Shown here piece after piece: positions 44,792 through 57,577 of a stretch of DNA of 64,000 nt. Under the pieces are notes generated by a model. The model made no database searches. It was not told the origin of the DNA and saw only the letters and a program-made list of their open reading frames with translations. This DNA is from Pirellulimonas nuda. Its GTDB lineage: Bacteria; Planctomycetota; Planctomycetia; Pirellulales; Lacipirellulaceae. The position numbers and the translations under genes were made by a program. Position 1 is the stretch's first letter; every line of letters starts with the position of its first letter. Location of the stretch: assembly GCF_007750855.1 (NCBI RefSeq), contig NZ_CP036291.1, positions 620,001 through 684,000 on the forward strand. Direction: 5' to 3'.

Positions 44792-44865
44792 GCGCCCGTA
44801 GCTCAGCTGGATAGAGCAGCGGACTTCTAATCCGCAGGTCGTTGGTTCGAGTCCAACCGGGCGTG
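44792..44865 (+). tRNA. tRNA-Arg (anticodon UCU)
   Basis: A 74-base cloverleaf: acceptor GCGCCCG pairs with CGGGCGT (one G-T), D arm GCTC/GAGC, anticodon stem GCGGA/TCCGC with loop CTTCTAA (anticodon TCT), T arm GTTGG/CCAAC with TTCGAGT loop. CCA is not encoded. The 3' part from the anticodon loop onwards is duplicated at 55257-55301 because an element is integrated here. Confidence 0.97.
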
Positions 44866-44867
44866 CT
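44823..44867. other. attL core, tRNA-Arg 3' half
   Basis: This 45-base sequence, from the anticodon loop to two bases beyond the tRNA, is perfectly repeated at 55257-55301. The flanking bases differ on both sides. The intact tRNA gene lies on this side. The integrase gene reads into it. Confidence 0.95.
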
Positions 44868-46113
44868 CAGAAAGGCCTTGTTTTAGAGTCTTTCGGCGAC
44901 GCTGCTCCGGCGGGTTCTGTTCAGGTGAACAGCTAGTGTCCACCGAAGTGTCCCCCAAAGCGGTCCAAAGCTCGGCCGCGGTCGCCGCTGCGTTCTGTCC
45001 GACGTAGAACGTCAACGTCGTTTCTACGGACGCGTGCCGCATTAGCTCCTTCAAAGTCGCCGGCATCACCCGCCGCGACCACCGGAAGCCAAACGATCGG
45101 CGCAGGTCGTGAGCTGATGCCGTCTTCCCTTTCTCCGGGTCCGTGACCACCCCCGCGGCCTTGCCTAGGGCGACGATCATCTTCCCGATCTTGAGCGGGT
45201 GCCTCGCCATCACCCCTTCGCCCCGAACCCGCTGAACGTTGAACACGAACCCAGTTTCCTTCCGCAGCGGCGCCAAGAGCTGGACGGCCTCGGGCGCCAA
45301 TGCCACAAGCTGCACCTTGCCCGACTTCTGTGAGCCGGCATCGAACACGAGAACGCTCTGCTTGCCGTCTAGACGCACGCTAACGCCACCGGGCTGATGG
45401 TCCCACCGCAACGCCAGGGCCTCGCCTAGACGCAAGCCAGACGTCCACAGGCCGCGTAGAAGCAGCTTCCACGACTCGGCCGCCTTGGCGCCCACGACGC
45501 CAGGGACAGCAGCGATCAGCCGGTCGAACTCTTCGCCGGTGATCGGTCGCCCCTTCATCTTCGCGGCGACGCCCTTCTTCGGCATATCGAACGATGGAAC
45601 CTTGGGCAGAATCCCTTGGCGGTTCGCCCACCGCGCCACGGCCTTGAGCTGGCGCAGGTGACGTCCGACGCTGGCCTCCGTCAACCGGTACTTCTGGACG
45701 GTCGGCTTCTCGTCGGCCTTGCCCTTGATCTCCCGCGTCCGTTCCTTCCGCAGCTCAGCGGCAAACGCCGAGATCCGCGCCGTCGTCAGGTCCGCCACGC
45801 GCCGGGGTCGGCAAAGCTGCTCAAACGCGTTCAAGGTCGACGCGTAGTTTCTCAGCGTCGCCGGAGTGACGGTCGGCATCAATTGCGTCTCGTACTGCTC
45901 ACGCAGCTCGTCCCACGGCATCCTAGCGGTTCGCTCGTACCTTCCGGCCTGTAGCTCGCCCTCCCACTTGGCGGCTTCCTTGGCGGCTTGCTTCGGCTTG
46001 TCGGTGCCGGTGCTGCGAGACTCTTCTTTGCCGGTCAGCGGGCAGCGGTAGCGCATGTAGAGGAATCGCCTGCCCTTGTCGACCACGTAGACGCGAATCT
46101 TGTCGTCCATCAC
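44827..46113 (-). CDS. int: Tyrosine recombinase/integrase
   Basis: A 428-residue integrase. An N-terminal SAM-like DNA-binding part is at about 55-160. The catalytic domain shows Arg in GLWTSGLRLGEALALRWD, HDLRRSFGFRW (H-x-x-R), His in LMRHASVETTLTFYVG and Tyr in FYVG. The last 12 residues (HARLDSNQRPAD) and the stop are encoded by the att core, i.e. tRNA sequence; since the stop is inside the core the C-terminus is the same in the integrated and circular states. The gene starts at 46113 next to a small intergenic region. Confidence 0.95.
   Translation of the reverse strand: MMDDKIRVYVVDKGRRFLYMRYRCPLTGKEESRSTGTDKPKQAAKEAAKWEGELQAGRYERTARMPWDELREQYETQLMPTVTPATLRNYASTLNAFEQLCRPRRVADLTTARISAFAAELRKERTREIKGKADEKPTVQKYRLTEASVGRHLRQLKAVARWANRQGILPKVPSFDMPKKGVAAKMKGRPITGEEFDRLIAAVPGVVGAKAAESWKLLLRGLWTSGLRLGEALALRWDHQPGGVSVRLDGKQSVLVFDAGSQKSGKVQLVALAPEAVQLLAPLRKETGFVFNVQRVRGEGVMARHPLKIGKMIVALGKAAGVVTDPEKGKTASAHDLRRSFGFRWSRRVMPATLKELMRHASVETTLTFYVGQNAAATAAELWTALGDTSVDTSCSPEQNPPEQRRRKTLKQGLSEHARLDSNQRPAD
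44936..44960. promoter_or_regulatory. Putative integrase arm-type site, left
   Basis: GTGTCCACCGAAGTGTCCCC and the following CAAAG match 55143-55166 at 22 of 24 positions in direct orientation. Each copy holds two GTGTCC units. This copy is 69 bases inside the attL core, in the integrase coding region. Confidence 0.5.
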
Positions 46114-46181
46114 TCACCCCTTGGTTGTTGAGCACAAACAACCCGGCCGCCCCTCCCTGGGCAGCCGGGCATGATCTCGAA

Positions 46182-46535
46182 TCACCTAGGCTTCCAAACG
46201 TCGCCTAGGTCGGGCAGCGTCAACGCGACTAGCAGCGTGTGCATCGCGTCGAACGAAGCGACAGACCTACAGGTCCGCCCCTTGCAGCTCACGCGGACCA
46301 TCAAGTGCGTGAGACGATCGATATGGCCCTCGCCGCGCAACCGTGCGGAGATGGCCATCGGGTCCATCGTCGGCGCCGGCGTCTTGCCAGTCGCCTGCAC
46401 AAGCATTTGGCGAAGCGACAGGTCTAGCGCGTGCTGTAGCAGCGGCCAGGCGTCCGTGATCCGGCCGGCGCCGCGCTCATCAACCGCGGCCCTCAGCGTC
46501 GCGGCCAGCTCGTTCCGTGTGGTGGAAACACTCAT
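46182..46535 (-). CDS. Hypothetical element protein
   Basis: A 117-residue soluble protein starting MSVSTTRNELAATLRAAVDE, helical in the first half (LLQHALDLSLRQMLVQATGK), with cysteines near CKGRTCRS. AGGAC precedes the ATG at 46535, and the open frame upstream has non-coding character, so this start was chosen. It lies between the integrase and the hairpin array. I do not recognise a family. Confidence 0.6.
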   Translation of the reverse strand: MSVSTTRNELAATLRAAVDERGAGRITDAWPLLQHALDLSLRQMLVQATGKTPAPTMDPMAISARLRGEGHIDRLTHLMVRVSCKGRTCRSVASFDAMHTLLVALTLPDLGDVWKPR

Positions 46536-46594
46536 CTTGCGAATGTCCTTTCCCGTCCGCTCCAGCCTTCGAAGGGCCAGCCGGACGAACCCTC

Positions 46595-46701
46595 GGGCCC
46601 GGTAGCGCGCTTCGAAAGGGGCAGCAGGGCTCCCCCCGCCAACGTCTTGCTCCCCGCCTACGCGGATCATCGCTTGTGCGTTGGCACACGCTACCGGGCC
46701 C
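46595..46701. repeat. 13-base perfect inverted repeat with 81-base loop
   Basis: GGGCCCGGTAGCG (46595-46607) and CGCTACCGGGCCC (46689-46701) are perfect complements. A second pair, GCAGCAGGGC and GGCCCTGCTG, overlaps it. The region 46536-46960 has no convincing gene and lies upstream of the 117-residue protein gene, so structured RNA or regulatory DNA is possible. Confidence 0.55.
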
Positions 46702-46960
46702 AAAGGCCCTGCTGATGGTGAACATAGAATCCCTGCACTTCTGCCAGTTGATCGGCGGCAAGGTTTCGAAGGCCCGGCCGCCAGGCCCCGGGTATCGGGG
46801 GCTTGGCAGGCGTAATTGTGCCGGTGGGCGTCCCAAAATGTCAACAGAGGAAAAACGGCCGCACCAGACGTCGCTGGTGACGCTCCGGCGGGCAGGTTGG
46901 TGTCTAAGGTCGTCTGGCGGGGGCGTGCGTTATTCGGGCTGCTAGGGGCTCGGGGCAGGA

Positions 46961-47222
46961 AGTGAACCAAATTCGGTTCACTTGTTGCCGCCGCGTTCGC
47001 CCGCGAGGCTCGCTATTAAGCATCGTTTCCCAAACTTGGGAAACGATGGTGCCCTTCGCGTGCCCGCGAGGCTCACCGGAGATAAATGCAATCCTGCACT
47101 TAATTCGATTGACTCCCTTCGCGTGTGCGCGCGAGGCTCGCCTAAGTGGGGTGGTTCCACCCCACTTCCTCCTACGCGTGCCCGCGAGGCTCACTTTTGC
47201 AACAAAACGAAAGGTTGCAAAA
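46961..47222. repeat. Array of conserved 20-nt repeat alternating with unrelated hairpins
   Basis: Hairpins: 46961-46982 (AGTGAACC stem), 47021-47048 (CATCGTTTCCCA stem, 12 bp), 47083-47102 (TAAATGCA, one mismatch), 47145-47168 (AAGTGGGGTGG, 11 bp), 47194-47222 (TTTTGCAAC, 9 bp). Between them lie four copies of a repeat of type CGCGTGCCCGCGAGGCTC, with cores at 47001, 47064, 47129 and 47182 (spacing 63, 65, 53). The hairpins share no sequence, only the ability to pair. No protein is plausible in any frame. Confidence 0.75.
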
Positions 47223-47330
47223 TCTTGCAAAACCTTGTCGAGCGATTGCTGCGTGACGCCAACCTGTAACCGTTACAAGTAGCCCCGGCGCGGCCGTTCA
47301 CGCACTGACCACCGGGGCACGCTCAGGTTG

Positions 47331-47516
47331 TCAAACAGCGTCCGCGTAACTGATCTCGGCCACCTTCACCACGGGGATCTCCGCATCTACAGCGTTCTCG
47401 GCCTCAGCTCTCGTCAATTGGAATAGCGATCGTCGGCGCCGCCGCTCCGCCGGGCTCCAGGTCGCCTGGAACGCCAAGCACGCCGCCTCGATCTCTTCCG
47501 GGCTCGGGTCGACCAT
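47331..47516 (-). CDS. Small phage-type hypothetical protein
   Basis: A 61-residue protein starting MVDPSPEEIEAACLAFQATW, followed by SPAERRRRR. The pattern 'EIEAACLAFQATWSPAERRRR' is common in short proteins of phages. It overlaps the upstream gene by 113 bases in a different frame, so one of the two ends is probably altered. It lies just after the hairpin array (in gene order just before it). Function unknown. Confidence 0.5.
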   Translation of the reverse strand: MVDPSPEEIEAACLAFQATWSPAERRRRRSLFQLTRAEAENAVDAEIPVVKVAEISYADAV

Positions 47517-47793
47517 CCTGGCTCCGTGTTGGTGTTCTCGTCAGAACCGTCTGGCCCATGCGCGCCGTCACCGCTTGGAAGCCGGCGGCAAAGTCCAACC
47601 GGTCGGCCGGTAGCTGGCAGATCTCGACAGCGAACCCTTCGGCCTCGGCGTCGGTCAGCATCCCCAGCTCTATCGCGGTCTGCATGGCGTCCAGGATCAT
47701 GTCAGCGCCCTCGATAACCCCGCCGTCGACGTCGAGGTCACCGCAAAAGTAGTCGTAGGCTCGCATCCTGATCGCGTGAATCGGGTTGTCCAT
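47404..47793 (-). CDS. Hypothetical protein following the tape-measure gene
   Basis: A 129-residue open frame starting MDNPIHAIRMRAYDYFCGDL. The first ~95 residues look like a real acidic helical protein (ILDAMQTAIELGMLTDAEAE). The tail (RPEPGRDRGGVLGVPGD) is the out-of-frame image of the next gene and is probably not native, which suggests that the original stop was lost. The ATG overlaps the tape-measure stop (TAATG), so translation is coupled. Function unknown. Confidence 0.5.
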   Translation of the reverse strand: MDNPIHAIRMRAYDYFCGDLDVDGGVIEGADMILDAMQTAIELGMLTDAEAEGFAVEICQLPADRLDFAAGFQAVTARMGQTVLTRTPTRSQDGRPEPGRDRGGVLGVPGDLEPGGAAAPTIAIPIDES

Positions 47794-49523
47794 TACACGC
47801 CCACCAGCGGGTTGGGCTTGTCCAGGTTCCGCACGCCCTTTTTGATCTCACGCAGTTCGCGAAGCTGAGCGTCGCCGGTGCTGCCAAACTGCTGGCCAGC
47901 GAAACGCGTGTCGAAGATGGCGGCCTGGTTGCTGGTGCCGAACGCCCCGGCGGATTGAGCCCCCTCGACCGCGTCTGCGATCGCCTGGACCTTGTCCGCA
48001 ACAACAGCGTGTGCGTCGGCTACTGTGGTCCCCAACAACTCCGCCCCGGTGGCGAGCTGCGCCCCGAGGTAGTTGCCGCCCTTGACCATCGCGTCGCCGA
48101 TCTTCTCCGTGAGCCACGTCCCGGCGCCCTCGATCTTCTGCTCTACCGGTGCGGCCGTCTGCTGCGCCGCGGACAACTGGCCACGGAACGCAGCGATCTT
48201 GGCCAACCGGGCTTCCGTGGAGGCGATGTTGCCGCTGATCGCCCTGGTAGCCTCGCCACCGATGCCGCGGAGCCGACCGTCTAGGTTGTTCGTCTGGTAG
48301 AGCTGCTTGTCGAGAATAGCCTTTTGCTCGGCCAGGCCCTTACGCAAGATCCGCTCTTCCTCGTCCAGGTCCGCAGCGATCGAGGCTTTACGCTTCTCGA
48401 ACTCCTCAGCCGGCCCACCGATCGCGGCGTTTAATTCCGCAGACCGCTTCTTCTCGTTCCGCCAGTCCGTGTTAGCGGAGATCTTCCCCAACTCGGCGTT
48501 GAGCTTGCGCAGGTCGACCAACAGGGCGGCAACGACAACAGCCACGCCCGCGAACGCCGCGATCAGCGGGTTGGCGATCAGGAACGCCGAGGCCGCCGAG
48601 ATAGCTGTCAGGCCCGCAGCGATGCCGGGAAGCGCCGCCCCGAACGTGATGGCGGCCGGACCCGCGACAGCAAGCGCCGCCCCGAGATAGCCGACCGTCT
48701 TGACCACCCCGGGGTTCTCAGTCGACCACTTCGCCAGGCCCTTCACGACGTCGCGGATCTTGCCGATCATCGCCGTAGCGGCCGGGAGGAAGTTCATTCC
48801 GATCTCAGTGGCGTAGTCGCTGATCTGCGTCTTCAGCCCCTTCATCTGGTTGGCGAAGCTGCCGGCCGTCCGCAGCGCGTCACCTTGTGCGTCCGTCGTG
48901 CCCGCCAGGATGATGGCAAACCGAGCGAACGCCCTTTGAGCCTCGGTGGCGAACTTGGGGTCGATGTTCGTATTGAGCAACTCCTGCTTGACGGCTGCCT
49001 CGCTGACGATGACGCCGTACTTTTTCATGACCTCGCCCGAGCCCGTGAGCGCCGCCGTCAGGTCACGCTGTACGTCCGCGTCGGTCATGTTATTGAAGCT
49101 GGCCAGGTCGATCGACAGCTCGGTGAGCTTCTTCGACAGGTCGGCCGCTTCGTTGGGCATCACGCCCATCGGCTTCAGTAGATCCTGGAAGCCGGCCGCG
49201 GCGCCGGCGATCTCGTACTTCGAGCGGCCGAGGGCCAAAGCCAACTCGTCACCCCAGCGGCGGATTGCCGGGGCCTGATCGCCAAATACTACGCCGAACT
49301 TGGACAGCGTTTCCTCGGCGTCGGACGCCTTGCTGATCGCGGCGACCAGGGGCGCGGTGATCGCTGCGCCGGCGGCCGTAGCCACCCGGCCCATCGTCTG
49401 GAAGCCGGAGCCGATCGTTCTCAGCTTCTTCTGCAAAGTGCGGAGCCCCTTGTCGACGGGCCCGGTGAGCAAACTCATCTCGATGACGGCCTTACCGGCC
49501 CGCAGTGCTCCAGCGCTTGCCAT
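47793..49523 (-). CDS. Phage tail tape-measure-like protein
   Basis: A 576-residue protein with the TP901/lambda-type tape-measure start: LRTIGSGFQTMGRVATAAGA, KASDAEETLSKFGVVFGDQA, then FQDLLKPMGVMPNEAADLSK and LTAALTGSGEVMKKYGVIVS. Two hydrophobic stretches (about 275-310 and 318-345) resemble the membrane-active parts of tape measures. A coiled coil is at about 380-450. Tape-measure proteins set tail length and help DNA pass the membrane. It is short for this class and no other tail gene is recognisable, so its present role in this element is open. Confidence 0.9.
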   Translation of the reverse strand: MASAGALRAGKAVIEMSLLTGPVDKGLRTLQKKLRTIGSGFQTMGRVATAAGAAITAPLVAAISKASDAEETLSKFGVVFGDQAPAIRRWGDELALALGRSKYEIAGAAAGFQDLLKPMGVMPNEAADLSKKLTELSIDLASFNNMTDADVQRDLTAALTGSGEVMKKYGVIVSEAAVKQELLNTNIDPKFATEAQRAFARFAIILAGTTDAQGDALRTAGSFANQMKGLKTQISDYATEIGMNFLPAATAMIGKIRDVVKGLAKWSTENPGVVKTVGYLGAALAVAGPAAITFGAALPGIAAGLTAISAASAFLIANPLIAAFAGVAVVVAALLVDLRKLNAELGKISANTDWRNEKKRSAELNAAIGGPAEEFEKRKASIAADLDEEERILRKGLAEQKAILDKQLYQTNNLDGRLRGIGGEATRAISGNIASTEARLAKIAAFRGQLSAAQQTAAPVEQKIEGAGTWLTEKIGDAMVKGGNYLGAQLATGAELLGTTVADAHAVVADKVQAIADAVEGAQSAGAFGTSNQAAIFDTRFAGQQFGSTGDAQLRELREIKKGVRNLDKPNPLVGV

Positions 49524-49591
49524 GGCAATCCTTTGTAGTTTGAAGTTTAAAACGCCCGGCCGCCGGGAGGTTGGCCAGCGACCGGGCTAAT

Positions 49592-49615
49592 ACCCGCGGA
49601 GGGAAGAACCGCGGG
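49592..49615 (-). terminator. Possible terminator after the coiled-coil gene
   Basis: CCGCGG pairs with CCGCGG around TTCTTCCCT on the minus strand, just downstream of the gene ending at 49623. A second weak inverted repeat (GCCCGG...CCGGGC) follows. No T-run is present, so the assignment is tentative. Confidence 0.3.
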
Positions 49616-49622
49616 GCGTTTG

Positions 49623-50342
49623 TTACAGTGTCAGCATCTCTCGCCGGTTCTCAGCCGCAGCCAGGCGAACGTCCACCAGCATCTTGCCGACGAGGTCCGC
49701 CTCTTGGTCCCAGTTGCCAAGCCGCCAGGCGAGCAAGGTCCGACCGGGTTCTACGGCAGACGCAATCGACTCCTTCAGCTCTTTCCGCTTCGAGTCGATT
49801 GACTTGCAATAGGTGTCGAGAGTCGTCCCAACGCGATTCAGAGCCGTCCCCTTCTGCTGCAACTCGGGGGGGGCAGTGGCAATCAACTGGTTGTCGAGCA
49901 CCTCGGGCGTCGCCATCTTCGCCTGTACGGCGGCACGCTCTTCCCGCAGCGGCTTCGTGCGAGACTTCACGTCTTCCACGGTGCGTTCTAGCGTCGAGGT
50001 CAGGTCGCCCAACTTGGCGAGCAACTTCTCCCGCTCGGCTTCGAGCTTGGCGTTCGCCGGTCTGCCGTCTGCCATCGCGTCGACAACAGCTTCCTCGATT
50101 TCCGCCAGCCGGTCGCGGATGGTGGTCGTCTCCGTCTTGTGGCGAGCGACCGCGGCTTCGCTCTCCCGCTCGAACCCGTCGATGGCGGTGGTCAGGTCCG
50201 CTTTGCGGCGACGCAGCAGCCCGTTGGCTGCAATCAGTCTCTTCAGCCGCTTTCGCTCGGCGGCACGCTCGGCGTCGGTCGAAGTGTGGTTGCAGCTTGG
50301 GGGAATCACAATCTTTTCGTCGGTGGGGGTGGTCCAGAACAT
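49623..50342 (-). CDS. Long coiled-coil element protein
   Basis: A 239-residue protein dominated by coiled coils (about residues 25-150; for example ERAAERKRLKRLIAANGLLR and AEREKLLAKLGDLTSTLERT). The first 20 residues (MFWTTPTDEKIVIPPSCN) are distinct. It is probably structural. The position directly upstream of the tape-measure gene is that of tail assembly chaperones in phages, but the sequence does not resemble them. The ATG at 50342 is three bases from the stop of the preceding gene. Confidence 0.75.
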   Translation of the reverse strand: MFWTTPTDEKIVIPPSCNHTSTDAERAAERKRLKRLIAANGLLRRRKADLTTAIDGFERESEAAVARHKTETTTIRDRLAEIEEAVVDAMADGRPANAKLEAEREKLLAKLGDLTSTLERTVEDVKSRTKPLREERAAVQAKMATPEVLDNQLIATAPPELQQKGTALNRVGTTLDTYCKSIDSKRKELKESIASAVEPGRTLLAWRLGNWDQEADLVGKMLVDVRLAAAENRREMLTL

Positions 50343-50345
50343 GGG

Positions 50346-51011
50346 CTAGCCTCTTGATTGCTTGATGCGTTGAAAGTAGTTATTGGCGTCGCGTTCAAAG
50401 GCGTCGATGTACCCCGTCGGTGGCGTCACGCTCTCCACCTTGGCGAACGTCCAATTCGCCATCCGGTCGGGCTCGTCGCCTAGCGCCGCGGCGTAGACCT
50501 GGGGTGCAGCCAACTGGTAGTCGAGTCCGGCGACGCGCAGGTCCTCGATGTCGACCACGCAGCCCGCCAGCTTCGCCCGATGGTGCAGGTGCAGAACGCG
50601 GCGAATCCACAGGATGCCGTGACCGTCCCACGGGGGCAGGTCAAACGTTCCTTCCCAAGCCACAGCAGCCCGCAGCCAGTCGTCACCCGTGGCGTCAAAA
50701 GAGCCGCCAGCGTCGTCGTAGGTGCCCGCCTCGATAGCCTCAGCAGCAGCGACCGACTCGGGACCGTCGACCGGCAACAAATGCGCTAGCTCGTGGAGCA
50801 ACAGCCCGGCGTCGGGCTCCCGGGCGAAGAGGATGGTCGGGATTTGGTCGTCCGCTAGGTCGAAGTGTTCCGCGATACGGGGTCCAGCACAGGGACGTGC
50901 GTAAGCCAATGCGTAGCCCGTGTGCCACTCCTCGGGGTGGCGACCGATGAACAGCTCTTTCAGCTCGGGGGCGACCATCTCCGCCAGCCGATAACACTGG
51001 CTGATTTTCAT
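50346..51011 (-). CDS. HELAH-motif putative zinc protease-like protein
   Basis: A 221-residue soluble protein with HELAHLL at about residues 93-99 and a possible third ligand among the downstream acidic residues (ESVAAAEAIEAG). The first part, MKISQCYRLAEMVAPELKEL, is helical. Phage-like elements often carry such HExxH proteins of unknown role. The start at 51011 overlaps the previous stop by four bases (ATGA). Confidence 0.7.
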   Translation of the reverse strand: MKISQCYRLAEMVAPELKELFIGRHPEEWHTGYALAYARPCAGPRIAEHFDLADDQIPTILFAREPDAGLLLHELAHLLPVDGPESVAAAEAIEAGTYDDAGGSFDATGDDWLRAAVAWEGTFDLPPWDGHGILWIRRVLHLHHRAKLAGCVVDIEDLRVAGLDYQLAAPQVYAAALGDEPDRMANWTFAKVESVTPPTGYIDAFERDANNYFQRIKQSRG

Positions 51012-51241
51012 TCCTCACCCCTCGGGGCAGAGGCAGCGGTCGGATAATGGCGGGGCACTCCGCGAATCTCGTGTTGGGGCAGAGTCTTGCACTTCACCCA
51101 ACGCTCGCCCTCCGCGTCGACCCGCCATTCCTGGATGGTCGTTCCGTTGATGACTGCGCCCATGGGCAGGTCCGCCTCACGTAAAAACTCCCACTCGCAT
51201 TCGTTGGTCACGGCTTCGGCCTCGGGGTGATTGTTCATCAT
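51008..51241 (-). CDS. Small hypothetical protein
   Basis: A 77-residue soluble protein starting MMNNHPEAEAVTNECEWEFL; a second ATG at the next codon may be the true start. It contains GAVINGTTIQEWRVDAEGER, a possible small beta-fold. It overlaps the HELAH gene by four bases. Function unknown. Confidence 0.6.
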   Translation of the reverse strand: MMNNHPEAEAVTNECEWEFLREADLPMGAVINGTTIQEWRVDAEGERWVKCKTLPQHEIRGVPRHYPTAASAPRGEE

Positions 51242-51247
51242 TGGAAT

Positions 51248-51457
51248 CTACCAAACGCCTAGGTCGTCACTGCCACAGTCTGGCAACGACAACACGATGT
51301 AAAGCTGGCCGCAGCGTTTGCACACTCGCCGCGATGTTCTGCCGCCGTCCGCGTCCCGCCAGCCTTTAATGCCGATGTACTTCAGCTCGCCGCAGGTCGG
51401 GCAGGTCGGGAGCCTAACCTCGACCACAGGGACGGTATCCCACGTGCTTTTTTTCAT
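51248..51457 (-). CDS. Small zinc-ribbon protein
   Basis: A 69-residue protein with two CxxC pairs, CPTCGE (about residues 19-22) and CKRCGQ (about 46-49), spaced as in a zinc ribbon. It begins MKKSTWDTVPVVEVRLPT. Such proteins in phages bind DNA or partner with Mu-type Com proteins; this assignment is not secure. It overlaps the next upstream gene by four bases. Confidence 0.7.
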   Translation of the reverse strand: MKKSTWDTVPVVEVRLPTCPTCGELKYIGIKGWRDADGGRTSRRVCKRCGQLYIVLSLPDCGSDDLGVW

Positions 51458-51804
51458 TGGTCGTCACTCCACAACAACGGCTTGGGGTCGCGTAAGGCTC
51501 GCAGGCTCTCCGCCAGGTCACGCCCGGTGTCGGTCAGGCGTAGGTGAGTTACACGCCCACCCCTCGCACGGTAGGCGTCTAGAAAGCCGGCGTCGGCAAG
51601 CTGCTCGGCGGCTCGAAGGAATCGCCGCTGCTCGGTCGCGGTCAGGTTGGAACCCCAGAAGTCTGGTCGGACGCGGGGTCCGTGCTCTAGCTCGGTCGTC
51701 TGCTCGAGGTAGTCCGAAGCCCACAACGGCAGCCGGGGCTCAGCCTCTAGGGCTTCGGTGCGGCACAGCATTTCGACGAGGATTCTTTTCTGTTCTGGGG
51801 TCAT
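51454..51804 (-). CDS. Small winged-helix-like protein
   Basis: A 116-residue protein starting MTPEQKRILVEMLCRTEALE; a GTG start at 51828 would add eight residues. TATEQRRFLRAAEQLADAGF and VTHLRLTDTGRDLAESLRAL look like a winged helix-turn-helix. It may regulate transcription of the element. It is the first gene of the minus-strand block 51828-46182. Upstream (51805-52087) is a non-coding stretch of about 280 bases. Confidence 0.6.
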   Translation of the reverse strand: MTPEQKRILVEMLCRTEALEAEPRLPLWASDYLEQTTELEHGPRVRPDFWGSNLTATEQRRFLRAAEQLADAGFLDAYRARGGRVTHLRLTDTGRDLAESLRALRDPKPLLWSDDQ

Positions 51805-52087
51805 TTCTTGTCCGTCCGATTGAATCACTACCTACAAAATTGACACTTCTGTTGCACCAGTGCTGGCGAGAGGTCGTAGAAGTCCCTTGACCATTTTCAA
51901 AACGTGTTGGGTCCTGGAAAAAAGAGGCACGCCACCCCGGGGCCAGACAGAAGTGCCAAGGTTTGCCACACACTAGATAGCTCGCCACAGTCCCTAGCGT
52001 GCCGCTGGTGACGTTGCGTTGGTTGTTGGTGTTCTGAGTCATGGTGATGGTCAAGCGTGCGTTGTGCGTTGCGTGGTGCGACGTGCG

Positions 52088-52192
52088 CTAGTCAGGCTCC
52101 GGCTCGTCGTCTGGCTCGTCTTGCTCCGGCTGGGGTTCGACAGGGGAGTCGTAGGGGCTGCTGTAGGGGCTGCTGTAGGGGGAGTCGTACAC
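52088..52192 (-). CDS. Possible 34-residue acidic repeat peptide
   Basis: From GTG 52192 the frame reads VYDSPYSSPYSSPYDSPVEP, followed by an acidic tail (QDEPDDEPEPD). YSSP is repeated in tandem, as is the DNA (GGGGCTGCTGTA). It follows the gene ending at 52208 by 15 bases. No clear ribosome binding site is present. It may be real, or only the trace of a tandem repeat. Confidence 0.3.
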   Translation of the reverse strand: MYDSPYSSPYSSPYDSPVEPQPEQDEPDDEPEPD

Positions 52193-52207
52193 GGCTGGCT
52201 CGGGTGG

Positions 52208-52468
52208 TTAGAACGGGATGCTGGTGGTGTTGTGCTTCAACTCGGCGGCCTCACGCTGGAGGTCAACCGCGATCTGCTCCCTCGCCACCTTGGGGCAGTT
52301 GTGCGTGCCGGGTAGCTCGTGCTGGCCACCGAGGTAGTCCAGGCGATCGAGCCTGAGTGCCCGATACGGGTTGTCGTGGCTCCAGGTCTTAGCTTTGGCG
52401 ATCATCTTGGCGATCTCTTCTCGGGTGAAGGTTGCTTCTATCGGTGCTGGGGGGTGGTCGGTTCTCAC
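52208..52468 (-). CDS. Small hypothetical element protein
   Basis: An 86-residue charged protein starting at GTG 52468 (MRTDHPPAPIEATFTREEIA), with AAGGAG upstream. Helical segments: EIAKMIAKAKTWSHDNPYRA and KVAREQIAVDLQREAAELKH. The first codons overlap an iteron-like repeat. Function unknown. Confidence 0.6.
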   Translation of the reverse strand: MRTDHPPAPIEATFTREEIAKMIAKAKTWSHDNPYRALRLDRLDYLGGQHELPGTHNCPKVAREQIAVDLQREAAELKHNTTSIPF

Positions 52469-52590
52469 TTCTCGAATCCCTCAAAACTCCTTCCGACCGG
52501 GGGGGGGTGGGTGGTCTCCCTTTAGGGGGACCACCAACACCCCCGTGGTCGGGGTGGTCGGGGGGGTGGTCGGTTTCAATCGACCACCCC
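52451..52590. repeat. Iteron-like GGGGTGGTCGGTT repeats and hairpin beside the replication ATPase
   Basis: GGGGTGGTCGGTT occurs at 52451-52463 and 52563-52575. Partial copies lie at 52509, 52544 and 52551, and inverted copies at 52526 (GGGGACCACC) and 52581 (CGACCACCCC). The region lies directly at the 3' end of the RepA-like ATPase gene. This could be a plasmid-type origin, or a terminator with slipped repeats. The GGGGTGGTCGGGG runs could also form a G-quadruplex. Confidence 0.5.
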
Positions 52591-54066
52591 CTCTGTAGGG
52601 GCAAGCGCGTACTCGTTAGTGGTGTTCCCGTTGGCGTCCGTCTCGCCGGCAATGATGGTCCCTCGCTTGAGCATCAAGCCGATCAGACGGGCCATCCGGT
52701 CGCGGCTGAACCCGGTCGCGTCGCGGAGCTTCCTGGTAGTCGCCGGACCACCAAGCAGGGCCGAGGCGATCTCCGTCATGGCCTCCTGGTCCTTCTCCGT
52801 CTGGCGTTGTTCACCACCGGTCAGCCGACCCTTGAGCTTGGAGGCGTCCAGGAGCGCATCGGGCCGCCACAGCGGGAACTCCCACCGAAGCGTGACGGGC
52901 TCGATCGGGGCGAAGGATCGGACGGCAGCGTCTAGGACGACCACGCCGGGTTCTTCGTGCTCACGGAGCACTAGGTGGCAATCCGCGGCCCGTGATTGGG
53001 CACCAGCCCCGGCCCCTACGTCCGTGGTCCGCTTGCCGGACTGATCGCCCTTGCTGGTGTGATGGATCATCACCAGGGCGGACTGCGTCTTCTCTGCGAT
53101 CCGGTCAAGCAGGTTATAAACCTGGGTCTCGGCCGCGTTGTCGTTTTCACTTGCCCCGGGCTCGATGAATCTATATTTGGCGTCGAAGAGGATCGCCCGG
53201 TAGTAGCCGGCCTCGATCGCCTCTAGCTCGCCGGCCAATTGCTGGAGCGACTTCAGGTTGCCCCGCAGCGGCCAGACGTCTAGCTCGCCCTGATAGTCGT
53301 GAGGCTCGATCCCCATAGCTTCCGCCACCAGCGGGATACGATGGGCCAGCGTGCTACGGTGTAGCTCGTTGTCGATCAGCAACACGCGGCCGCAGTGCGT
53401 GTCGAAGCGATCGAGCCAGCGACGCCCAGTGATAATCGACAACGCCAGGCTGTAACCCAACCAAGACTTGCCGACCTTGCTCATGCTGATCAAGTTGACC
53501 GTCTCGCCCTGCCGGCAGAGCCCGTCGATAACCGCTGGATTCAATCGCGGGTGAAGCTTCAGCAGCTCCCCGAGGTCGAACTTCTCCACCCCGCGGCGTT
53601 TGACTCCCGGCTCACGCTGGAAATCGTCCAACGCGGCCAGCATGTCGTTGAGCACGGCCTGAGACGTGCTGCCGTTTAAGGCGTCCTGGGCGGCCGTCTG
53701 GGCCAGGTCGTAGAGTTGCCGCTTGCGATCCGCCTCGACCACCAGCCCCGCGTAATAGGGCACGTCTAGGGCGTGTGGCGTGTCGTCCATCGCCAACGCC
53801 AGGAACGCGGCGGCCTGTTCACCCAACGCGGGGGATTTCTTCACCTCCCGGAGCACCAGCCCGATGTCGAGCGGCTTGCCCGAGCTGCGCTGCTGGAGGA
53901 TCGCGAGAAAGGCGTGGCGGTGTGCCGGGTCGCTGAAGTGGCGCGGCCCGACAATCTTTAACGCCTTATCGATTGATTCCGAGTCGAGCAACATGCCGCC
54001 GATCAGCAGTCGCTCCGCTTCCGTCGCGGTGGGTAACGTCGGCTCCGCCGAGGGGGACGCTTTCAC
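52576..54066 (-). CDS. DnaB-N / RepA-like AAA ATPase, probable replication protein
   Basis: A 496-residue protein starting at GTG 54066. Residues ~12-110 resemble the DnaB helicase N-terminal domain (TEAERLLIGGMLLDSESIDK). Residues ~165-420 form a RecA-like RepA/AAA_25 ATPase with Walker A SMSKVGKSWL, Walker B AILFDAKY and the MIHHTSKG motif. A C-terminal winged helix follows (TRKLRDATGFSRDRMARLIG). It resembles replicative hexameric helicases of plasmids of RSF1010 RepA type. It is probably the replication initiator or helicase of the element. It overlaps the preceding gene by four bases (GTGA). Confidence 0.85.
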   Translation of the reverse strand: MKASPSAEPTLPTATEAERLLIGGMLLDSESIDKALKIVGPRHFSDPAHRHAFLAILQQRSSGKPLDIGLVLREVKKSPALGEQAAAFLALAMDDTPHALDVPYYAGLVVEADRKRQLYDLAQTAAQDALNGSTSQAVLNDMLAALDDFQREPGVKRRGVEKFDLGELLKLHPRLNPAVIDGLCRQGETVNLISMSKVGKSWLGYSLALSIITGRRWLDRFDTHCGRVLLIDNELHRSTLAHRIPLVAEAMGIEPHDYQGELDVWPLRGNLKSLQQLAGELEAIEAGYYRAILFDAKYRFIEPGASENDNAAETQVYNLLDRIAEKTQSALVMIHHTSKGDQSGKRTTDVGAGAGAQSRAADCHLVLREHEEPGVVVLDAAVRSFAPIEPVTLRWEFPLWRPDALLDASKLKGRLTGGEQRQTEKDQEAMTEIASALLGGPATTRKLRDATGFSRDRMARLIGLMLKRGTIIAGETDANGNTTNEYALAPTEGVVD

Positions 54067-54308
54067 TTGGAGCCCTCCCCGGGGGCGACTGCGATAGAGA
54101 AAACGTCCGCCAGCAGAACGCGGGAGGTCGTTGCCCTGATCTTTCGCCGAAGGTTGCCGTAGTGAATGAGCCCTTGCGTGTCGTGCGGGCCCATCCCCAT
54201 GCATTGCAGGGCAACCGACAGCTCACTGATGGCAGCAAGCGCCCTCTCACGCTGATCTTCAGAGACGGGAACGGTGGGGAATTGCTGGGCTGTTTTGGTG
54301 GTGTTCAT
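54063..54308 (-). CDS. Small hypothetical protein
   Basis: An 81-residue soluble protein starting MNTTKTAQQFPTVPVSEDQR. It is helical in the middle (RALAAISELSVALQCMGMG). Overlaps of four bases with both neighbours put it in one operon with the excisionase-like gene and the ATPase gene. Function unknown. Confidence 0.6.
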   Translation of the reverse strand: MNTTKTAQQFPTVPVSEDQRERALAAISELSVALQCMGMGPHDTQGLIHYGNLRRKIRATTSRVLLADVFSIAVAPGEGSK

Positions 54309-54550
54309 TGCTCGCCCCCCACTTCCAGCTCGGCGAGCTTGGCGGACAACGTCCGAAGCCACTCAATGCCGTCGGCGCCTTGGATGTAGACGCGTTTGCC
54401 GACAGTGAACGTCGGAAGGGGGACGCCAAGCAACTTGGCTTCGTGGATGCGCGTCTTCGAGACGCCAGCGGCCTTGCACCAGGCTGCCAGGGGGTAGCAC
54501 GCTTCGGGGTGAAGCGGCTGCGTGTCCTTCGCGTAGGCGGTAATCGCCAT
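54305..54550 (-). CDS. Excisionase/AlpA-type helix-turn-helix protein
   Basis: An 81-residue protein starting MAITAYAKDTQPLHPEACYP. YPLAAWCKAAGVSKTRIHEAKLLGVPLPTFTVGKRVYI fits a MerR/excisionase-type winged helix (the sequence is a 'helix-turn-helix, wing with K/R-VYI' pattern). Such proteins direct excision or regulate integrase. GTAGGAGAG upstream of the ATG is a good ribosome binding site. It leads the replication operon. Confidence 0.75.
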   Translation of the reverse strand: MAITAYAKDTQPLHPEACYPLAAWCKAAGVSKTRIHEAKLLGVPLPTFTVGKRVYIQGADGIEWLRTLSAKLAELEVGGEQ

Positions 54551-54578
54551 GGCCAGACTCTCCTACGGGGTTCTTTGT

Positions 54579-54607
54579 GTAATCGCACCAAACGGGGTGC
54601 AATTCAA
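54579..54607 (-). promoter_or_regulatory. Possible promoter of the excisionase-replication operon
   Basis: On the minus strand, TTGAAT (54607-54602) and GATTAC (54584-54579) are separated by 17 bases, close to a sigma70-type promoter, about 30 bases upstream of the start codon. The spacer holds GCACCCCGTTTGGTGC, an inverted repeat that could be an operator. Tentative. Confidence 0.35.
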
Positions 54608-54653
54608 ACCACGTAGTTAAGTTTGCCGGAAAGACGGCTATGGGTCGGTCGCT

Positions 54654-54669
54654 AACGGTATATACCGTT
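54654..54669. promoter_or_regulatory. Perfect 16-base palindrome, probable operator
   Basis: AACGGTATATACCGTT is a perfect palindrome with an AT-rich centre, typical of a dimeric repressor site. It lies two bases beyond the stop of the 121-residue wHTH-like gene and about 105 bases upstream of the excisionase-like gene. Confidence 0.55.
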
Positions 54670-54670
54670 C

Positions 54671-55036
54671 TCAGGCTCGCTTGTAGCCGCGATCTCCCTT
54701 AACCGGCACCAGAACGCCACGCGCTTTTAGCTCAGCTAGGCGTAGCTTGATCGATCCCTCAGAAGCGATCTCGCCATCTTCTGCGAGCTTGTCGAGAAGG
54801 TCGGTCTGTGATTTCACGGAACCGTGATTGTCAATGCAATCGAGGATCATTTCGTCGACTGCGGTAAGCCGGACCGCAGGCGCAGGCGGTTTGATTTTCT
54901 CCGCTGCGTCCACAATCCAGCCGCGGGTGACGTTGTTGCCACCACCGCGGAAGAGCGACTCCCGCACTTGTCGCAACTCCTCGTCGGTGAACGGAATGTC
55001 AACCGGATCAACAGTACGCCGTGGGGCTTCGCCCAT
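54671..55036 (-). CDS. Small wHTH-like protein, possible repressor
   Basis: A 121-residue protein starting MGEAPRRTVDPVDIPFTDEE. The C-terminal part (about 55-121) resembles a winged helix-turn-helix (AVDEMILDCIDNHGSVKSQT, SIKLRLAELKARGVLVPVKG). AAGGA lies ten bases upstream of the ATG at 55036, so this start is preferred over a TTG at 55057. Its place at the right end of the element fits a regulator of maintenance. The palindrome directly downstream could be its operator. Confidence 0.65.
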   Translation of the reverse strand: MGEAPRRTVDPVDIPFTDEELRQVRESLFRGGGNNVTRGWIVDAAEKIKPPAPAVRLTAVDEMILDCIDNHGSVKSQTDLLDKLAEDGEIASEGSIKLRLAELKARGVLVPVKGDRGYKRA

Positions 55037-55065
55037 TGAGAATCCATCCTTTTCCAACCCGACCC

Positions 55066-55095
55066 CCGCGGCGCCAAGGATGGTAGGCGCCGCGG
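55066..55095. repeat. Inverted repeat CCGCGGCGCC / GGCGCCGCGG
   Basis: Ten-base perfect arms with a ten-base spacer in the region upstream of the gene starting at 55036. It is a candidate operator or a structural part of the element end. Confidence 0.45.
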
Positions 55096-55142
55096 TGATC
55101 GACGGGGGTAGCTACTCCCCCTAGTTGGCTTCGAGTGCCTTG

Positions 55143-55166
55143 GTGTCCACTAAAGTGTCCCCCAAA
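55143..55166. promoter_or_regulatory. Putative integrase arm-type site, right
   Basis: GTGTCCACTAAAGTGTCCCC plus CAAA matches 44936-44959 at 22 of 24 positions and lies 90 bases inside the attR core. Both contain two GTGTCC units. Confidence 0.5.
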
Positions 55167-55256
55167 TCGCTCTGGACCACTTATCCCAAAGCGTTGGGAG
55201 GCACGTTTTCTCCGCTACTTAAATATAACGGAATCCAAACGGTTGTACAAATTGAC

Positions 55257-55301
55257 ACTTCTAATCCGCAGGTCGTTGGTTCGAGTCCAACCGGGCGTGC
55301 T
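55257..55301. other. attR core
   Basis: A perfect 45-base copy of 44823-44867 (3' half of tRNA-Arg). It lacks the 5' half of the tRNA, so it is not a gene. It defines the right end of the integrated element. Confidence 0.95.
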
Positions 55302-56030: not shown

Positions 56031-57577
56031 CACTACAGCGCTAGGTCACGTCCATCTGCAGCGTATCAGGCCTTTGAGAATGATGCCGTTTCTCCGCAGT
56101 TTTTTCAGGGTTCGCTTCCGGTGGGAGGCCCGCGCGGCGGCGTTGCGTTGTTGCCAGTGCTGGATGACGTTGGCGGTGTGCTCGATGAGCGTCGGCGAGG
56201 CCCGGCCGTTACGCTGCCAACTCGGCAGCAGCGCGCCGACGGCGGCGTGGACTTGGCAGACCGTGACCTCCGGATTTTTTCCCCCGCAGCCGTTCACGAC
56301 AGCGGGCCAGGAACAAGTAGCTGACGCACGACAGGATCAAATGGCGTTTGAGACCGAGGTAACAGCGGCCCTCCCACTGATCGAGTCCGATCTCCTGCTT
56401 CTGGTCGCGGAAGCACCGTTCGACGCGCCACCGCGAGAACGCAACCAGCAACAACGTCTCGATGGTCGTGTCGGACGGGGCGTTGCTGATGAAATACTTC
56501 ACCTCATCGTGGTTCAATGCGTTGCGGGCGACGAGCAGGTGGAGTTCGATCCCCGGCAACCCGTCGTCGTTCTTCATGACGATGCGGGCGTGCTTCGCCT
56601 CCCACACGAGCGGCCCCTTCTCGCCGTCCTTCACGTAGTACCGGGTCCACGCTTGATCACGCAGCTCGGGCCAGTTCTCGGCGAGGTCTTGCACGCTCTG
56701 CGGGGCGCTCGCTGCGGCGACCAACCGCGGGACCTTGCGGGGCCGGCCGCGACCGCCGCGGCGAAAGGGTCGCTCCGTCACGCGCGGCCGGTCGGTCCAA
56801 CACGAGAACGTCGTCGGGACCTCGGCGACGAAGCGTTGCTTTCGACCGTCCAAGCCCTGCAAAAACAGCGGCTTTCCGCCGTAGCCTTCGTCGAACGTCA
56901 GCCAGTCGAACATCACGCCGTGGGCCGCGGCCCGATCGCAAAGCTCCAGGGCGATCTTCCACTTGGAGCGGTAGACCATGTCCTCGGGAATGCCGGCGGC
57001 CCGACACCGCTGGCGGTCCTCCGACCAACTCTCCGGCAAGAACAGCTCGCCGTCGACCAGCGCGTGGAAGTCGCCGGTCGCGTAGCCCAAGTGGACCGTG
57101 ACGATGCCGTTCTCCTGCTTGCCGACGCAGCCGCAGTACTGCCGCTGCACGCCGGGCGTCTTGTCCCCCTTCTTGACGTCGCTCGTTTCGTCGATCAGGC
57201 CGATCGAGTGCGGCCCCGCATGATCTCGGAGGACGATCTCTTGGAGTCGCCGGCGCACGGCGTCTTCGTCCCAGCGGTGCTGGGCCAGGAACTCTTGCAG
57301 CGTCCGCGGCGCCACTCCGGCGGCCAGCGCCATCGGCTCGCAACTCTTCGCGGGCAGTTCGGAGAGTTGGCCTTCGACGTAGGTTGGCAAGTGCGCACGA
57401 GTATCCCGACGCGAGAAACAGGCGTCGAATTCGTGCAAGTAACTCGTCAATTCCGGCTTCAAACGGCGGATCTCATCGGCGTCCATGCTAGCGGCCCTGC
57501 GCCAGGTCGCCCCCCTGCGACACCAACAACATGGCCGATCGCCCAAACGCAAACAAGATCAACGTAGCGCTGTAGTA
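56031..57577. mobile_element. IS701-family insertion sequence
   Basis: The element is 1547 bp, with 12-base terminal inverted repeats ACTACAGCGCTA at 56032-56043 and its complement at 57565-57576. It is flanked by a four-base target duplication CTAA (56027-56030 and 57578-57581), which fits the YTAR target preference of the IS701 family. It has one transposase gene on the minus strand, which carries a frameshift. Confidence 0.9.
56046..57486 (-). pseudogene. IS701-family DDE transposase, frameshifted near the C-terminus
   Basis: From ATG 57486 the frame starts MDADEIRRLKPELTSYLHEF. DDE residues: Asp in LIDETSDVKKG, Asp in FDEGYGGKP and Glu in WRVERCFRDQKQEIGL. The frame goes out at CRERLRGKKS, and homologous sequence resumes in another frame as KNPEVTVCQVHAAVGALLPS to the stop at 56046. 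One extra A in an A6 run near 56277-56282 explains this. If the run were A5, a normal transposase of about 480 residues would result. A sequencing error, a real mutation, or transcriptional slippage are all possible. Confidence 0.85.

Follow-up and report, generated by a model that had tools for sequence, protein, structure and literature searches.

The 64,000-nucleotide stretch of Pirellulimonas nuda DNA analysed here (contig NZ_CP036291.1, positions 620,001 to 684,000; called the window, with positions counted from its first letter) contains a small integrated element that encodes a tape-measure protein (TMP) and has no recognised virion-forming gene set. The element is probably a phage satellite that brings its own TMP to the particles of a helper siphophage. 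Related elements of like layout in other Planctomycetota suggest that this TMP is swapped into helper-phage tails.

The element and its tape-measure protein

An earlier note, made by a model from the letters of the window, described a 10.4-kb element with perfect 45-bp att repeats. The two repeats are identical at 45 of 45 positions and their spacing, 10,434 bp, is the size of the element. The first copy forms the 3' part of a tRNA-Arg(TCT) gene, and a search of the 6.6-Mb genome with this tRNA gene gave perfect matches only at its own site and at the attR copy. Inside each end of the element (44936 and 55143) there is a 20-nt direct repeat, GTGTCCACNNAAGTGTCCCC, for which 0 copies are expected by chance; judged from their placement and motif, the copies look like integrase arm sites. 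Integrative satellites are about 7-20 kb long and have att repeats, an integrase and a replication gene, and this size and layout are found here. The features on which the argument depends are as follows.

44792-44866, plus strand: tRNA-Arg(TCT), the integration target (ARAGORN; Rfam tRNA)
44823-44867: att core, copy 1, 45 bp, perfect direct repeat
44936-44965: putative integrase arm site, repeat D2 (direct repeat and motif)
44827-46113, minus strand: tyrosine integrase, 428 aa (PF00589, E = 6e-9; phrog_1, E = 8e-38; same-family homologues at most 67% identical)
47793-49523, minus strand: TMP, 576 aa (PHROG TMP families; tblastn to annotated phage TMPs; alignment)
49623-50342, minus strand: coiled-coil protein, 239 aa, putative scaffold (coiled-coil Pfam matches; alignment with relatives at the equivalent place)
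50346-51011, minus strand: HExxH protein, 221 aa, putative metalloprotease (H73, E74, H77, H131 and H141 invariant in five relatives)
51248-51457, minus strand: zinc-ribbon protein, 69 aa (homologues in loci L159, L317, L330, L120, L121 and L322)
51454-51828, minus strand: winged-helix protein, 124 aa (39% identical to a protein of L317, E = 9e-16)
52576-54204, minus strand: replication-type ATPase, up to 542 aa (DnaB N-terminal domain, E = 1e-18; AAA_25, E = 1e-24; relatives 39-60% identical)
54305-54550, minus strand: excisionase-like protein, 81 aa (homologue at the equivalent place in L305, E = 4e-12; also in L307, L309, L312 and L313)
55143-55172: putative integrase arm site, repeat D2, in the same orientation as the copy at 44936
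55257-55301: att core, copy 2 (attR), 45 bp, perfect direct repeat

The integrase, excisionase-like protein, DnaB-N/RepA-like ATPase and TMP named in the earlier note were all confirmed by these matches, the ATPase as a DnaB-N plus AAA_25 protein and the excisionase-like protein by its homologue in L305, though it has no significant Pfam match. The ten larger proteins of the element were scanned against PHROGs and the smaller ones against Pfam. No capsid, portal, terminase, tail tube, other tail or lysis family was recognised in these scans, which agrees with the absence of capsid, portal, terminase and lysis functions claimed earlier.

The TMP matches several PHROG tape-measure families, the best named one with E = 2.5e-11, and is 46-52% identical over about 300 residues to the TMPs of uncultivated siphophages. 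In an alignment with siphophage TMPs the best 50-residue blocks of its core are up to 72-76% identical; good conservation is confined to the N-terminal core, approximately residues 60-260, whereas the sequence of the C-terminal half has diverged. The relatives of this TMP are found mostly in full siphophages, both viral contigs and prophages, where they are surrounded by genes for the portal, capsid (often a protease-capsid fusion), neck and tail. The presence of the TMP family in full siphophage modules points to the likely source of the gene and to the type of helper, not to a deletion in the element. In a tree, the TMPs of the element and of L298, L300, L302 and L305 take separate places among siphophage TMPs, with weak support for the element and L300. 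The satellite TMPs are full-length, from 427 to 1124 aa. By eye, proteins of L121 (505 aa), L203 (658 aa) and L207 (723 aa) resemble TMPs, but neither PHROGs nor profiles support this, and they were not counted.

Two open reading frames (ORFs) overlap directly after the TMP gene (47331-47516 and 47404-47793, both minus strand). The end of the longer one resembles an out-of-frame translation, which could mean that 47404-47793 holds a frameshift or an overlapping start.

Related elements with the same layout or integrase

Full prophages of the phylum carry relatives of the ATPase, and the ATPase alone is therefore no marker of a satellite; relatives were defined by integrase, excisionase and gene order instead. 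A search with the integrase in 396 genomes of the order gave close matches, at most 67% identical, in 51 genomes. Twenty of these loci were fetched and nine were delimited (L307, L309, L310, L312, L313, L317, L319, L321 and L322), all bounded at tRNA genes by exact att repeats 28-57 bp long and with sizes of 8.5-18.7 kb. The others were left undelimited, so the set is no census. Locus genes were called by a simple script and several of the relatives' genomes are incomplete.

The same gene order at tRNA genes in other Planctomycetota had been proposed as a check, and it was found in L317, an 11.1-kb element from the same bacterial family that is integrated at tRNA-Leu with a 57-bp att repeat. 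Both elements have the order ATPase, winged helix, zinc ribbon, HExxH protein, coiled coil, TMP, integrase. The proteins that flank the TMP are just 21-45% identical between the two (winged helix 39%, HExxH protein 25%, coiled coil 21% over the alignment, integrase 45%; the zinc ribbon matches with E = 4e-6). The TMP of L317 (PHROGs, E = 8e-29) belongs to another lineage: it matches the TMP of L305 (32%) and has no BLAST match to the TMP in the window. Because L317 keeps the layout but has a TMP of a different lineage, the frame is an old conserved one in which the TMP has been replaced. L330, from the same family, has a zinc ribbon, an HExxH protein (E = 2e-22), a coiled coil and a TMP-like protein of a third lineage in this order; an att repeat and an integrase were not found at this locus. 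L305 (same family, tRNA-Leu, 14.2 kb) resembles the element in its integrase (E = 2e-94) and excisionase, has a different primase, and carries a coiled coil ahead of a TMP that was confirmed by PHROGs. In L319 the HExxH protein and coiled coil are present and no TMP was recognised.

Other elements with an integrase of the same family, each with its two att copies, carry different subsets of structural genes. L312 has a head protease (E = 6e-19 to that of L300), a coiled coil and a TMP (E = 1e-6), L309 has a TMP homologous to that of L312, and L313 has a protease, a coiled coil and a TMP-like protein. The last, of 522 aa, has no PHROG match and is called TMP-like solely through its homologues in L330 and L309. 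L321 encodes TerL (E = 8e-36), a protease-like protein and a coiled coil, while L120 (E = 3e-65) and L322 encode an MCP-protease. No portal was detected in these subset-bearing elements among the PHROG matches listed. When 94 otherwise unassigned proteins from eleven elements were compared with PHROGs, a terminase small subunit and a capsid match were seen among the 25 of 58 families listed.

Similar subsets occur with other integrases. L300 (16.9 kb) carries a head protease and a TMP and L302 (16.1 kb) a capsid protein (MCP) and a TMP, both between exact tRNA repeats; a small protein beside the TMP of L300 resembles phage counterparts by position only. L298 has a protease and a TMP, and an exact att pair was not found there. 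L135 has a capsid gene and a TMP adjoining tRNA-Pro and is cut off by the contig end. In L140, L141, L142 and L188 an MCP-protease gene is followed directly by genes for the AAA_25 ATPase and for a putative serine recombinase. No portal match was obtained in these four, which are possibly another satellite group in Planctomycetota. L308 (464-5293) has two integrases of the window family, 61-63% identical and 3.5 kb apart, at tRNA-Arg and tRNA-Met of one genome, with giant ORFs of 2452 and 1288 aa after them.

Proposed mechanism

It is proposed that the integrase and the excisionase-like protein would move the element in and out of tRNA-Arg and that the DnaB-N/AAA_25 ATPase would support its replication. 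The element would then be packaged by a helper siphophage that supplies the tail tube, tail tip, portal and terminase. The TMP of the satellite would take the place of the helper TMP, and satellite particles would thereby carry chimeric tails. The genes for the HExxH protein and the coiled coil sit just ahead of the TMP gene. Because they occupy the place of the ClpP/SppA-type head protease and coiled coil of L312 and L313, their products may be a head-maturation protease and a scaffold, probably both acting on helper capsids. A wider proposal, which we put forward tentatively and consider rather less probable than not, is that there is a Planctomycetota satellite family with a swappable cassette of protease (HExxH metalloprotease or ClpP/SppA type), coiled-coil scaffold and TMP that re-sizes the head and tail of helper particles. 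The TMP would be swapped for one of another lineage so as to fit the helper, within an otherwise unchanged frame.

Several observations weigh against a helper-dependent satellite with its own TMP. Neither a terminase small subunit nor a pac/cos site nor a tail assembly chaperone was recognised in the element; chaperones of the kind expected beside the TMP are small and fast-evolving, and diverged tail genes could escape PHROGs. The protease and scaffold roles, which are probable, are assigned from gene position. AlphaFold models of the HExxH protein had a pLDDT of 48 and then 62, and Foldseek gave no usable match in the PDB. The lack of a portal among the 94 proteins compared holds for the same 25 of 58 PHROG families. 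No full siphoprophage that could be the helper and no MCP-protease homologue were found in the host genome, and the only portal match in that genome belongs to a locus of head and packaging genes in which no TMP is recognisable.

That locus (L275/L276, G000:C1:382583-394824) has a portal (E = 1e-40), putative TerL, TerS and capsid genes and no recognisable tail gene. It is possibly another capsid-forming satellite or a remnant.

Alternative explanations

The earlier note offered three options: a helper phage, a tail-like injection or killing device with diverged parts, and decay. Dependence on a helper is the best supported of the three, as a structural module is also missing from the elements that are related to this one by integrase, excisionase and gene order. 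A siphoprophage that lost its head, packaging and most tail genes, with the TMP as a leftover, would account for the TMP relatives in modules with portal and capsid genes and for an ATPase family that is common to full prophages of the phylum; L222 resembles a damaged prophage with TerL, portal, ATPase, HExxH protein and coiled coil. However, all frames of the element are open and tightly packed, as had been noted against simple decay, and decay does not give the pattern seen in L317, where the gene order is kept at low protein identity with a replaced TMP. It had also been reasoned that close relatives with a full structural module next to the TMP gene would make the element a deleted prophage. 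L305, L317, L312, L309, L319, L322 and L120 have no portals among the matches listed, and the closest integrase and excisionase relatives sit in elements where portals are likewise missing; on this ground the refutation as a deleted prophage fails. Selection on a capsid gene points the same way. L120 and L121, from one genome, have in common a 3.3-kb module from zinc ribbon to MCP with approximately 95.5% DNA identity, at different tRNAs and with different integrases. Their MCP genes differ by 32 synonymous and 6 nonsynonymous changes, and the dN/dS of 0.065 indicates that the capsid gene of these portal-less elements is under purifying selection, part of which may lie in the history of another carrier. 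Together with the conserved layout of L317 this argues against decay. The element is not a one-off deleted prophage, and a decaying prophage in general is regarded as unlikely.

It could also be suggested that the TMP acts, as a whole or through its conserved core, as a decoy. It would then poison the tail assembly of an incoming phage, shielding the host or the satellite, and would not be built into particles. The restriction of good conservation to residues of the N-terminal core would fit such a role, and antiviral systems are known to target tail assembly, the TMP included (PMC12987554; also indicated in PMC11364771). The satellite TMPs are nevertheless full-length, where a short decoy would suffice, and their genes are accompanied by genes for proteases, coiled-coil proteins and capsids; PLE particles incorporate the TMP, and the inhibitor there is a separate protein, Rta (PMC12987554). 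We give little credence to interference as the function of the element. It is very unlikely that the element is a mobilisable one spread by conjugation, or a passive passenger, with the TMP as random cargo. It is small and integrated in a tRNA gene, and its same-integrase sister L307 appears to carry a CRISPR-Cas locus, but no relaxase was recognised in the Pfam and PHROGs scans, and the cargo is repeatedly made up of phage morphogenesis genes in a fixed position. An autonomous tail-like device would explain why a TMP is present along with many small proteins without assignment. It is hardly credible given that no tube, baseplate or lysis gene was recognised, that about 10 kb leaves little room, and that the relatives carry capsid or terminase genes, which would be superfluous in a tail device.

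Two of the loci mentioned have features of their own. L222 (555-4007) has a TerL-like ORF of 1150 aa with an apparent intein in the Walker A region. L307 (1390-19172) is an att-bounded element of 18.2 kb with an integrase 67% identical to that in the window; its apparent CRISPR-Cas locus has a type I-G look (Csb1/Csb2-, Cas3-, Cas4-Cas1- and Cas2-like proteins, by eye) and an array in which a 36-nt repeat occurs about 15 times. The element also encodes a protein resembling a P27-type terminase small subunit.

Other features of the element

The remaining features of the element are given below.

46182-46535, minus strand: 118-aa ORF beside the integrase gene (open frame; ORF of similar size at the equivalent place in related elements)
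46960-47225, minus strand: non-coding array of palindromes alternating with GYGAGCCTCGCGGGC repeats (RNA fold z = -7.2)
47331-47516, minus strand: 61-aa ORF in another frame that overlaps the 129-aa ORF (weakly similar to a 68-aa protein adjoining the TMP in L305, E = 0.006)
47404-47793, minus strand: 129-aa ORF directly after the TMP gene (open frame)
51008-51241, minus strand: 77-aa ORF (homologue ahead of the HExxH gene in L319, E = 3e-4)
52208-52468, minus strand: 86-aa ORF (open frame)
54063-54362, minus strand: ORF of up to 99 aa that overlaps the ATPase start (open frame)
54671-55057, minus strand: 128-aa protein closest to the outer end, a possible regulator (homologue in the delimited element L310, E = 9e-14)

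In the non-coding array, which is strongly foldable, four GYGAGCCTCGCGGGC repeats, approximately 51-67 bp apart, alternate with palindromes whose sequences differ. Outside the array the genome has no exact copy of the 15-mer, and similarly arranged palindromes are found at the equivalent place in L121 (16920-17110) and L120 (3960-4090). In an Rfam scan of the element all matches besides the tRNA were below gathering scores. Approximately 0.9 kb beyond attR the window has a DDE_5 transposase gene (56209-57552, minus strand).

Comparison with known satellites and significance

The principle of a satellite TMP is already known, since chimeric tails made with a satellite's own TMP were demonstrated in 2026 for the PLE satellites of Vibrio cholerae (PMC12987554). 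In PLE11 the satellite TMP is incorporated, the ICP1 TMP is excluded and tails are approximately 10 nm shorter; deletion of tmp in PLE1 and PLE4 lowers transfer by 96-99% (PMC12987554). Compared by description and not by sequence, the element in the window is likewise integrative, with its own TMP and no full tail. PLE differ in having a tail chaperone and, in PLE11, a baseplate hub protein, neither of which was recognised here, and in their helper, the lytic contractile-tailed phage ICP1, and their host, a Gammaproteobacterium. The cf-PICIs, too, are small and integrative and carry structural genes, relying on a helper for whatever else is required. However, their capsid and packaging gene set is complete, with portal, connectors and both terminase subunits (PMC10690885), whereas the element has no recognised capsid or packaging gene; because this complete head and packaging set is missing it is no cf-PICI. 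PICI/SaPI, P4-like and PICMI elements resemble it in being approximately 10 kb long (9.5 kb for PICI and 10 kb for P4, as cited in PMC10803314) with an integrase, an excisionase-type regulator and a replication gene; it differs from classical PICI and P4 by its TMP and two putative head genes. The siphoprophages of Planctomycetota (L112, L115 and L123-L128) have the TMP superfamily, MCP-protease family and ATPase family in common with the elements, but differ from the element in the window by their portal and head genes and, in L127, where it was looked for, by TerL.

According to PMC12987554 no satellites besides PLE have been reported to encode a TMP, and the legend of its Extended Data Fig. 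10 indicates putative tmp genes in some cf-PICIs. In the literature searched, no paper on phage satellites of Planctomycetota was found. The element family, the host phylum and the cassette appear to be new. The first report of satellite-encoded TMPs, for PLE, dates from March 2026; there are hints of them in further Vibrio elements and in cf-PICIs. The elements discussed here add an apparently unrelated set in another phylum, with TMPs that were acquired several times and one that was replaced inside a conserved layout. If the satellite explanation is true, reprogramming of helper tails would be a widespread satellite strategy, and such elements could be used to study the benefit that a TMP of its own brings to a satellite, be it through tail length, delivery of DNA or evasion of defences that target tails.

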